Of a DNA stretch of 64,000 nucleotides, positions 36,377 through 39,543 are shown one piece after another. The stretch is from NCBI GenBank assembly GCA_002840435.1, contig PHAT01000004.1:186001-250000 (forward strand), in the 5' to 3' direction. Both the position numbers and the translations under genes were made by a program. The notes beneath the pieces were generated by a model that was not told where the DNA came from, did not search any database, and saw nothing but the letters and a program-made list of their open reading frames with translations. The DNA is from Deltaproteobacteria bacterium HGW-Deltaproteobacteria-6 (lineage in GTDB: Bacteria > Desulfobacterota > Syntrophia > Syntrophales > Smithellaceae). The stretch's first letter is position 1; every line of letters begins with the position of its first letter.

Positions 36377-37345
36377 ATGCATAGAAATCAAATTGAGTTA
36401 TGGCAGCATCATCACACCTTCAATGCTGAAAAAAAAGCAATAGAAAAACGAACAGCCATTGTTGTCATCATTACTTTTGCCACAATGACGGCCGAAATAA
36501 TATTCGGCTGGATTTCAAATTCAATGGCGTTGCTGGCCGATGGCTGGCACATGGGAACGCATGCGTTTGCCCTGGGCATATCCCTGATGGCCTATATGAT
36601 GGCCAGAAAATATGCAAAAGATGAAACCTTCACATTTGGAACATGGAAAATTGAAATTCTGGGCGCTTATACCAGCGCCGTCGTGCTGGGCATCGTTGCC
36701 GTGATCATGATTTTTTCTTCTGTTGAAAGAATGATCAACCCTTTGAACATTTATTACAACCAGGCCTTGTTTGTGGCCATCGTGGGATTGTCGGTCAATC
36801 TTGTTTGTGCGGCAATACTGAACAACGGTAGTCATGCTCATGAACACGATCATCATAGTGATGATCATCAACATTCGCATCATCCGCACCATCATGAAGA
36901 TTTAAACTTAAAATCAGCCTATCTGCACGTGATGGCAGATGCTTTAACGTCCATCCTGGCTATTGCAGCATTGCTGGGCGCAAAATATTTCAAGCTGAAC
37001 TGGCTTGACCCGTTTATGGGTATTGTGGGCGCGGGCCTGATTATCCACTGGTCGTTTTTATTACTGAAGGATACCAGTGGCATTCTGCTGGAACGGGAAA
37101 TGGGTAATCCGATCGCTGATGAAATCAAAAGTGAGATTGAATCCGATGGAGATTCAAAAATAAGTGACCTGCATATCTGGAAAGTGGCGCAAAACCAGTA
37201 TGCCTGCATTGTGTCGCTGGTTACAGCTGAACAATACTCGCTTGAAGACTATAAAACACGATTACATAAAGTACATGAATTGGTTCATGTCACGATAGAA
37301 ATTAATGAATGCAAAAGTGACAAGCACCGACCGGCAATCCGGTAG
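36377..37345 (+). CDS. dmeF: CDF family cation efflux transporter, DmeF-like
   Basis: The 322-residue protein has six transmembrane helices. The CDF zinc-site residues appear in helix 2 (ALLADGWHMGTHAFALGISL) and in helix 5 (YLHVMADALTSILAIAALLG). A His-rich cytoplasmic loop (HEHDHHSDDHQHSHHPHHHE) sits between helices 4 and 5. The HxxxD pattern, the His loop and the opening HRNQIELWQHHHTF are typical of DmeF-like exporters of Co, Ni or Zn driven by protons. A regulator of the RcnR type is not adjacent. Confidence 0.9.
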   Translation: MHRNQIELWQHHHTFNAEKKAIEKRTAIVVIITFATMTAEIIFGWISNSMALLADGWHMGTHAFALGISLMAYMMARKYAKDETFTFGTWKIEILGAYTSAVVLGIVAVIMIFSSVERMINPLNIYYNQALFVAIVGLSVNLVCAAILNNGSHAHEHDHHSDDHQHSHHPHHHEDLNLKSAYLHVMADALTSILAIAALLGAKYFKLNWLDPFMGIVGAGLIIHWSFLLLKDTSGILLEREMGNPIADEIKSEIESDGDSKISDLHIWKVAQNQYACIVSLVTAEQYSLEDYKTRLHKVHELVHVTIEINECKSDKHRPAIR

Positions 37346-37430: not shown

Positions 37431-38507
37431 ATGCATGCAGTCATCATGGCCGGAGGACGCGGCACACGATTCTGGCCCAGGAGCCGCGAAAGGAAACCGA
37501 AACACCTGCTGGACATCACGAGCGACCGGACAATCATTCAGGAAACCGTTGACCGGATCTCGCCGCTCGTCAAACCCGAAAACATTCTGATTGTGACAGG
37601 CAGCAAACATGCCAAGGAATTGATGAAGCAATTGCCGGAGGTTCCCGCTCAAAATATTCTGATTGAACCGGTGGGGCGGAACACGGCCCCCTGCATCGGC
37701 CTGGCCGCTGTCCACGTTCAGAAAAGATGCAAAGATGACGTCATGGTTGTTTTGCCTTCCGATCATGGCATCGCCGATCCTGCCCAATACCGGAAAGTTA
37801 TCGCCGCGGCGGCCAAGGCGGCCGAAAAAGGGAACGCACTCGTGACCGTCGGCCTGAAACCCACCAGTCCGCATACCGGCTTTGGTTACATGGAAGGCGG
37901 CGCATCCATAGGCCGGGTCGCAGGCCAGACGCTTTTGCGGGTGAAAGCCTTCCGCGAAAAACCGGACCGCAAAAAGGCCGAAGCCTTTGTGAAAAACGGG
38001 AATTTTTTCTGGAACAGCGGCATGTTTATCTGGAAAGCTTCGGCGATCTTAAGCGAAATAGAACATTTTTTGCCGGATTTGCATTCAGGACTGATGACCA
38101 TCAAGGCCTCGCTGGGAAAATCCTCCGAAGCCAGAACGCTGTCGGCGATTTACAAGGGACTGGCGTCGATCTCCATCGATTACGGCGTCATGGAAAAAGC
38201 CAAAGACGTGTTTATGATTCCGGCAAGTTTCGGCTGGAGCGACGTGGGAAGCTGGGATACCCTGTGGGAGATATCCGCCAGGGACAAAAACGGCAACGCC
38301 GCAACAGGCGGCTCCCAGGCCATCTTTGAGAACACCGAAAACGCTCTTGTTTACAGCCCGAAAAAGCTGGTGGCGTTGATCGGCATGAAGGATGTCATTG
38401 TCGTCGAGACAAAAGACGCTCTGCTCATCTGTAAAAAAGGTCAATCACAGGATGTCAAAAAAATTGTAGACCTGCTGGAAGCCGGCGGAGAAAATCAGTT
38501 GCTCTGA
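37431..38507 (+). CDS. manC: mannose-1-phosphate guanylyltransferase
   Basis: The 358-residue protein has the nucleotidyltransferase signature MAGGRGTRFWPRSRERKPKH (about 7-26). VLPSDHGIADPAQYRKVI and the active-site segment FREKPDRKKA (about 178-187) follow, then NSGMFIWKASAIL and VGSWDTLW near the end. It makes GDP-mannose from GTP and mannose 1-phosphate for surface polysaccharide. It lacks the C-terminal cupin isomerase domain of bifunctional enzymes. Its last 13 bases overlap the convergent selenoprotein candidate gene. Confidence 0.9.
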   Translation: MHAVIMAGGRGTRFWPRSRERKPKHLLDITSDRTIIQETVDRISPLVKPENILIVTGSKHAKELMKQLPEVPAQNILIEPVGRNTAPCIGLAAVHVQKRCKDDVMVVLPSDHGIADPAQYRKVIAAAAKAAEKGNALVTVGLKPTSPHTGFGYMEGGASIGRVAGQTLLRVKAFREKPDRKKAEAFVKNGNFFWNSGMFIWKASAILSEIEHFLPDLHSGLMTIKASLGKSSEARTLSAIYKGLASISIDYGVMEKAKDVFMIPASFGWSDVGSWDTLWEISARDKNGNAATGGSQAIFENTENALVYSPKKLVALIGMKDVIVVETKDALLICKKGQSQDVKKIVDLLEAGGENQLL

Positions 38508-38818
38508 GCCTCTTCCGGAAAATCTTTCAGATAAACCGGCTTGTCCTTTACGGGGAATTTTCCTTCGCTCAACGCCTTCGTCAGGACATCAAGGTTCGTC
38601 CGTTCGTCGTCAAAGACAACAAGCAGGATATCCGGCTGCCGTATCTGGTGTTTCTTAACGCCGTCAATTTTCTTCAGGATAGCCCCTATCCTGCTGCCGG
38701 CGCCTCATGAAAAACACCCGGGAACGGTCAACTGCACGATTTTTTCCGAAGCGAAGGCGGTAAAGGCCTGCGACATCAGGAAAACGAATACTAAAAAAAA
38801 GATCGCTGTTTTTTTCAT
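38495..38818 (-). CDS. probable selenoprotein: secreted MerP-like heavy-metal-associated (HMA) domain with CxxU
   Basis: From ATG 38818, with GGAG upstream, the frame gives a signal peptide (MKKTAIFFLVFVFLMSQAFT, cleavage near AFA) and EKIVQLTVPGCFS. An in-frame UGA follows at codon 38 (38705-38707), and then 69 codons continue to a UGA stop at 38495. The part after the UGA (GAGSRIGAILKKIDGVKKHQ, LLVVFDDERTNLDVLTKALS) is a normal HMA fold like that of MerP, whose metal site is CxxC. Reading UGA as selenocysteine gives CFSU, a CxxU in the right place. A perfect stem-loop follows at SECIS distance (38675-38693). The alternative is a nonsense pseudogene. It is convergent with manC and 1.1 kb from a CDF metal exporter. 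SelA, SelB, SelC and SelD are not in the window. Confidence 0.72.
38675..38693 (-). promoter_or_regulatory. candidate bacterial SECIS stem-loop
   Basis: On the minus strand CAGGATAG, GGG and CTATCCTG form a perfect 8-bp stem with a three-base G loop. Eleven bases separate the UGA from the stem and 19 from the apical loop. Bacterial SECIS elements usually carry a G among the first loop bases at about 16-37 bases from the UGA; this one fits. Confidence 0.72.
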
Positions 38819-38946
38819 CATCAGCTCCACATTTGCCATTTTAAATTTGATTACGCCAAGTCGCTGAAAGATGCAACGGCAATTTACAATTGACAGGGAA
38901 TGTTTTATTTGGAATAAAAACTCAAAACTGGAAATAGAAAGAAATA

Positions 38947-39543
38947 ATGATGACCATCTCCGTATCCTTCCCTTTTATTCTGGCCTCCGCTTCGCCGCGC
39001 CGCGAAGAGCTGTTGCGCTCCGTGGGACTGAAGTTTAAAATTATTCCCGCTGACGTTGATGAAACTTATCTCAAAGGCGAAAGCCCCCGCGCTCACGTCC
39101 GAAGGCTGTCCCATGATAAAGCGGGAGTGATCGCCGCAAAATACCCGAAGGCTCTGGTGCTGGGCGCAGACACCATCGTGGTAATTGACGGCCTGATTCT
39201 GGGCAAGCCCAAAAACAAGAAGCAGGCGCGCGAAATGCTTGAAAGACTCAGCGGGCGCAAACACACCGTATTCACGGGTTTTACCATCGCCTGCGCCGCT
39301 TCCGGAATATCAAAGACCAGAGTTGTCCAATCCGCCGTTCAGTTCAAAGAAATCAGCCCCGAAGAAATGGACTGGTACGTGGGCTGCGATGAGCCCTACG
39401 ACAAGGCCGGCGGCTATGCCGTGCAGGGCAAAGGCGCGTACTTTATCAAAGCGATCCGCGGCTCCTATACCAACGTCATCGGCTTGCCGCTTTGTGAAAC
39501 GCTGGAAGAACTTAAAATTTTCGGGGCCATTCATTTCAGGTGA
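38947..39543 (+). CDS. maf: Maf family nucleoside triphosphate pyrophosphatase
   Basis: The 198-residue protein begins ILASASPRREELLRSVGLKF, the Maf signature. The catalytic ADTIVVIDGLILGKPKNKKQ (about 75-94), SGRKHTVFTGF and YDKAGGYAVQGKGAYFI follow. Maf proteins hydrolyse non-canonical or canonical nucleoside triphosphates and slow septum formation. The frame could start at 38947 or 38950. It is seven bases ahead of the YggS gene. Confidence 0.92.
   Translation: MMTISVSFPFILASASPRREELLRSVGLKFKIIPADVDETYLKGESPRAHVRRLSHDKAGVIAAKYPKALVLGADTIVVIDGLILGKPKNKKQAREMLERLSGRKHTVFTGFTIACAASGISKTRVVQSAVQFKEISPEEMDWYVGCDEPYDKAGGYAVQGKGAYFIKAIRGSYTNVIGLPLCETLEELKIFGAIHFR

Follow-up and report, generated by a model that had tools for sequence, protein, structure and literature searches.

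On the minus strand of the window (the 64,000-nt stretch of DNA analyzed here), a gene at 38818..38495 probably encodes a secreted, periplasmic selenoprotein of HMA fold that binds soft metals; we put the probability of this reading as a whole at about 0.83. Insertion of selenocysteine (Sec) at the in-frame UGA of this gene is next to certain, because the UGA is kept in relatives, the hairpin downstream of it covaries and exceeds what coding constraint would produce, and the Sec machinery is present in the genome.

Reading frame and conservation of the UGA codon

The gene comprises 107 codons, namely a signal peptide, the motif PGCFSU and 69 further codons. In translation of the minus strand, ATG 38818 is the start, a TGA at 38497-38495 is the stop, and UGA 38707-38705 is the sole internal stop, which bears out the earlier description of a signal-peptide-bearing frame interrupted by a single UGA. 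The initial annotation placed this frame at 38495-38818; these coordinates are right, but the strand was omitted, and the plus-strand reading of the same coordinates, 38495-38818, gives no such protein. The choice of ATG 38818 is based on the MKK or MRK start common to most relatives and on a Shine-Dalgarno-like GGAG, read from the sequence at 38825..38828 (minus strand), 6 nt upstream; Sec is residue 38 counted from this codon, or residue 39 if counted from ATG 38821. The predicted signal peptide MKKTAIFFLVFVFLMSQAFTAFA (38750..38818, minus strand) would be cleaved after AFA, as judged by eye. Its hydrophobic N-terminus is conserved family-wide, the Ala ending it is nearly invariant, and the mature protein would begin with SEKIVQLTVPGCFSUGAG, in which the CxxU motif Cys-Phe-Ser-Sec is encoded at 38705..38716 (minus strand).

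Homologues were searched for, reading through stop codons, in 99 genomes, comprising the own genome of the window and 98 relatives from the order Syntrophales. Hits came from 73 of the 99 genomes, representing 25 of the 42 genera, own genome included. All 81 homologous stretches were read: the Sec site is filled by UGA (TGA) in 78 and by TGT (Cys) in three, and no other codon was seen there. The TGA codons include 76 placed by script and two read by eye on contig-end pieces (L025 and L065), which come from one genome, possibly represent one gene, and were left out of the 79 script-placed sites and of the synonymous-codon redraw described below. Two of the Cys homologues have CxxC (L062, G030:C161, and L068, G022:C94) and one has CxC (L085, G098:C149); each of their genomes also has a Sec copy, giving natural Sec/Cys pairs.

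The median dN/dS in the region 3' of the UGA is 0.20 and the highest value is 0.68 (69 usable of 171 pairs, 19 close sequences), which points to purifying selection on the downstream frame. Homologues thus have Sec or Cys at the site rather than unrelated residues, and their frame is maintained rather than decayed, in line with the 69 codons that had been described after the UGA. The protein is missing from 26 of the 99 genomes, 24 of which have selA.

All 30 named loci are titled as metagenome-assembled genomes (MAG). Nineteen are labelled Smithella, Smithellaceae or Syntrophaceae, nine only Deltaproteobacteria, one Desulfobacterales, and one Patescibacteria. The homologue L152 (JAHIYH010000063.1) lies on a contig binned as Patescibacteria, for which a binning error is more likely than transfer. 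Two alignments were used: A3, consisting of 28 of the 30 named loci and the window gene, with the contig-end pieces L132 and L153 left out, and A1, consisting of 31 sequences chosen for diversity.

A phylum-wide search gave matches in 85 of 395 genomes at E <= 1e-5 (L105 of this set duplicates L088). Twenty of these loci (L106-L125) were translated; seven (L106-L111 and L114) have an in-frame UGA at the site, and the other 13 are CxxC HMA proteins or other CxxC proteins. Many weaker matches sit in open frames of 700-950 aa and were taken for metal ATPases.

Downstream hairpin and selenocysteine machinery

A candidate SECIS hairpin, CAGGAUAG-GGG-CUAUCCUG, lies within the coding sequence at 38693-38675 of the minus strand and was characterized by folding, covariation and codon redraw. 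It has a stem of eight perfect base pairs and a 3-nt loop, and it begins 11 nt after the UGA, exactly as the initial annotation had reported in speaking of a perfect 8-bp hairpin with a G-rich loop; the distance from UGA to loop is 19 nt. Folded alone it has an energy of -9.0 kcal/mol, and in a 67-nt context the energy is -21.1 kcal/mol (z -2.81), equaled by one of 200 shuffles. The bacterial SECIS model in section 5 of PMC13188914 specifies a loop of 3-9 nt with G in the first two loop positions, a spacing of 16-37 nt and an MFE <= -7.5. The window values fit the model as given in that section, so the hairpin does lie inside bacterial SECIS limits, as had been proposed.

Covariation was analyzed in the 58 distinct hairpins among 69, in which the 39 columns from the UGA onward align without gaps. 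Pairing is formed in 93.3% of the 464 cells, and both-side changes occur in seven of the eight pairs; when the partner is slid by 1-3 columns, 32-47% of the cells are paired vs. the 93.3% in register. Cells with changes on both sides number 27, compared to 6.6 in shuffles, and none of 500 shuffles reaches 27. Pairing is lost at the innermost position in 13 of the 58 sequences and at the outermost in 15. With synonymous codons redrawn, the mean number of pairs formed is 5.47 of 8 (highest of 1000 draws, 5.86) vs. 7.47 in the real sequences; the requirements of the protein sequence fall far short of explaining how often the hairpin forms. At the first Ile codon of the stem, ATA is used by all 52 of the 69 CxxU genes that have Ile there; in the rest of these genes, ATA accounts for 104 of 550 Ile codons.

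The median energy of the 19-nt hairpin in the 69 CxxU genes is -7.6 kcal/mol, and, when cut to 19 nt, hairpins weaker than -7.5 kcal/mol are found in 24 of the 69 CxxU-type genes (22 of the 58 distinct sequences) and in three of the seven CxU-type genes. In the three Cys homologues, a small sample, the corresponding 19 nt yield only -0.2 to -0.8 kcal/mol; by simple pair count, 6, 4 and 5 of the 8 pairs are still formed, and within 45 nt the CxC homologue can fold an alternative hairpin of -10.6 kcal/mol. None of these three sequences has preserved the hairpin in register.

The selenocysteine system presupposed by the initial annotation is complete in the own genome, which contains selA (E 4.8e-181), selB (E 5.6e-109), selD (E 1.4e-111, itself with an in-frame TGA) and two tRNA-Sec (selC) genes with a TCA anticodon called by ARAGORN. 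Among the 99 genomes, selA is present in 91; the six protein-bearing genomes in which it was not detected are draft assemblies of 67-94% completeness. Both tRNA-Sec genes are located on one contig outside the window (L001, G000:C5:317473-317566; L002, G000:C5:815483-815577). They differ from each other, and in each of them the first base pairs of the acceptor stem include, by eye, one or two mismatches. L001 scores 62.5 bits; the best match in 19 other genomes of the genus scores 72-78 bits in 15 and only 47-50 bits in four (G002, G003, G004 and G017). The Rfam tRNA-Sec cut-off on its own is unselective here, as a gene called tRNA-Ser by ARAGORN passes it too.

In the proposed mechanism, SelB and tRNA-Sec would read the hairpin at 38693-38675, and ribosomes would then insert Sec at UGA 38707-38705. 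If the UGA were instead a true stop, the product would be a short secreted peptide, or a single nonsense mutation would have left the gene decayed, and UGA does act as a terminator here, ending both this gene itself and the neighboring manC. Such a reading is at odds with the retention of UGA in 78 of 81 stretches with TGT as the sole alternative, with selection on the 3' part, with the covarying hairpin and with the complete Sec machinery. We consider it extremely improbable, and an ordinary stop or decay was rejected on the grounds of UGA conservation, dN/dS and hairpin covariation. Genome-wide reassignment of UGA is disfavored as well, since manC and the selenoprotein gene end in TGA and the genome has the whole Sec system.

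Protein fold, genomic context and possible function

The window protein alone matched none of the Pfam families. Among the 31 aligned members, 17 match the HMA family PF00403 at E <= 1 (best 1.1e-9), and a search of the PDB with the family profile gave CopA (2.5e-15) and MerP (4e-10). An AlphaFold2 model in which Cys replaces Sec has a mean pLDDT of 83.8 and strands at 26-32, 55-61, 65-71 and 92-98 with helices at 41-50 and 77-86, that is, the order beta-alpha-beta-beta-alpha-beta. Foldseek ranked MerP first among PDB structures (1osd, E 2.8e-5), and in VIA-align HMA domains occupy the top ranks, with Z reaching 11.6. On the model and the profiles together, an HMA (MerP/CopZ) fold is very probable for the window protein.

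In the model, Cys and Sec fall within the loop and short turn that connect strand 1 to helix 1, the region in which HMA proteins bind soft metal ions. The metal motif of HMA proteins is GMxCxxC; PGCFSU departs from it in that Sec replaces one Cys and the register is offset by two residues. With the close-family profile, CxxU is aligned to the CxxC of MerP with a two-residue offset on each side, and the broader profile gives a gap-free alignment to CopA in which the motif lies two residues N-terminal of CxxC. The earlier assignment of the UGA to the second Cys of CxxC is alignment-dependent, the two profiles differing by two residues.

The residue at position -3 from Sec is Cys in 68 of the 69 CxxU-type genes and Tyr in one. 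Seven further genes are of the CxU type, in which Cys is one residue closer to Sec and the spacing between UGA and hairpin is 3 nt longer. Three loci outside the order, from other families of the phylum (L109, L110 and L111), have PGVVU with an in-frame UGA and no Cys nearby; the conserved AGGATAGG hairpin is not evident in them. Within the sequences sampled, Sec is thus retained where Cys is not, and, because the upstream Cys varies (replaced by Tyr, shifted in CxU, or absent in L109-L111), a fixed two-ligand site does not suit the family as a whole.

The gene overlaps by 13 nt at its end with the end of a convergent gene for a manC-type mannose-1-phosphate guanylyltransferase (37431..38507, plus strand; Pfam NTP_transferase and ManC_GMP_beta-helix), and a divergent gene on the other side encodes a Maf family protein (38947..39543, plus strand; Pfam Maf). 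A convergent manC neighbor was found in 26 of the 31 loci compared, and an upstream, divergent ORF of the maf cluster in 23 of 31. A gene for a cation diffusion facilitator that contains a His-rich segment (36377..37345, plus strand; Pfam Cation_efflux) sits between a methyltransferase gene and manC; no match to it was found at the other 30 loci, with flanks of up to 5 kb. A metal-gene neighborhood was rejected, as this transporter is peculiar to the window among the 31 loci. No mer genes were recognized among the neighbors (maf, yggS-like and manC), and conserved genetic context across the 31 loci lends no support to any function.

The signal peptide would direct export to the periplasm, where the mature domain of ~84 residues, predicted from the model and profiles to adopt the HMA topology, would present Cys and Sec between strand 1 and helix 1 as its metal site. 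The selenolate, with or without the thiolate, may bind Hg(II), Cu(I) or Ag(I), and the protein could serve as a periplasmic scavenger or shuttle acting without MerT. We infer soft-metal binding as the function with moderate confidence.

Several other roles were weighed against it. A true MerP would bind periplasmic Hg(II) and hand it to MerT for import and reduction; MerP works with MerT. Among NCBIfam models, the window protein matches MerP (TIGR02052) best, at E 6e-11, and each of the 31 aligned members hits this model at E <= 0.01. However, the score of the window protein is 42.6 bits vs. a cut-off of 92.55, the own genome gave no match to MerT (PF02411), which is present in one of the 99 genomes, and the neighborhood is one of maf and manC. 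A place in a mer system was rejected, neither MerT nor mer neighbors having been found, and we regard a MerP role as very unlikely; the label 'MerP-like' of the initial annotation stands for the fold and the sequence family, but not for the role. Partnership with mercury methylation, in which the protein would control periplasmic Hg(II) in hgcA-bearing syntrophs, seems improbable, if less so. The hgcA gene is above cut-off in 49 of the 99 genomes, own included, and co-occurs with the protein: it was detected in 44 of the 73 genomes with the protein vs. five of the 26 without it (Fisher p 0.0005). In the own genome it lies on the same contig outside the window (G000:C4:309918-310904, E 3e-137), yet ~85 kb away from the selenoprotein gene. 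Outside the own family the respective numbers are 9 of 23 vs. 5 of 25 (p 0.21, not significant), and because the association is weak there, shared ancestry may explain the co-occurrence.

The main rival to metal binding is a redox role, in which Cys and Sec would form a selenylsulfide and the protein would be a periplasmic thiol/selenol oxidoreductase or a peroxide scavenger on an HMA scaffold. The CxxU motif occurs in many selenoproteins of Table 1 in PMC13188914, which according to that review are mostly redox proteins; in addition, the best Foldseek match, 1osd, is oxidised MerP, and metal-system neighbors are not conserved. On the other hand, the profile and fold matches go to metal-binding HMA domains, and some members have no nearby Cys of the kind needed for an in-motif selenylsulfide. 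We consider a redox role rather unlikely, although less so than either mercury-specific role, and retain soft-metal binding as the preferred function.

Comparison with known HMA proteins and selenoproteins

Although 73 of the 99 genomes sampled from the order retain the family, the window protein remains below every NCBIfam cut-off, and annotation pipelines therefore probably truncate the gene at the UGA. It seems to be a further case of selenium used for metal binding rather than catalysis. The natural Cys homologues beside the Sec form offer a small protein in which the effect of Sec on soft-metal affinity could be gauged, and the set of 58 covarying SECIS sequences is a resource for predictors. 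As a tentative generalization, to which we attach rather low confidence, these proteins may represent a broad family of periplasmic HMA selenoproteins that no model covers as yet, passed on vertically within the order of Smithella and Syntrophaceae and scattered elsewhere in the phylum. Its metal site would be defined by the selenolate and not by a CxxC pair, with a Cys partner that slides or is lost (to Tyr or Val), and its members would act as stand-alone soft-metal sinks, partly in mercury-methylating syntrophs without MerT.

In kind, the window protein is not without precedent. HMA selenoproteins are already known, since PMC13188914, the GOS survey, NF041115 and NF045683 all list similar selenoproteins, and the window protein adds another member. 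Table 2 of the 2008 GOS ocean survey (PMC2398784) includes a Sec-containing 'Mercuric transport protein MerP' with two sequences and zero Cys homologues in the samples surveyed; in name and in Sec it resembles the window family, and the absence of Cys homologues there fits the few close Cys homologues seen here. Table 1 of the 2026 catalogue PMC13188914 contains a UxxU metal-binding protein with two Sec and a Sec-containing 'Putative mercuric transport protein' with C/SxxU (ABB16073); the word MerP is absent from the text of PMC13188914.

The NCBIfam model NF041115, a UxxU metal-binding (seleno)protein, likewise describes a metal-binding selenoprotein and is weakly matched by 15 of the 31 members at E <= 0.01 (best E 8e-5). 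It differs in having UxxU in place of the CxxU of the window protein, which gives no match to it up to E 10; its cut-off is 95 bits, and two relatives score 20.5 and 25.4. The heavy-metal selenoprotein model NF045683 (MerT/CopZ fusion-like heavy metal transport selenoprotein), which we infer to be the same family as the 'Putative mercuric transport protein' of PMC13188914, is matched by five of the 31 members at E <= 0.01 (best E 1.9e-7). By its name it is fused to a MerT-type part, whereas the window protein consists of a signal peptide and this one domain, and its genome gave no MerT match. Finally, the HMA domains of MerP (1afi, 1osd), CopZ and CopA resemble the window protein in fold and sequence profile but have CxxC, whereas the window protein has CxxU with a two-residue offset around the motif.
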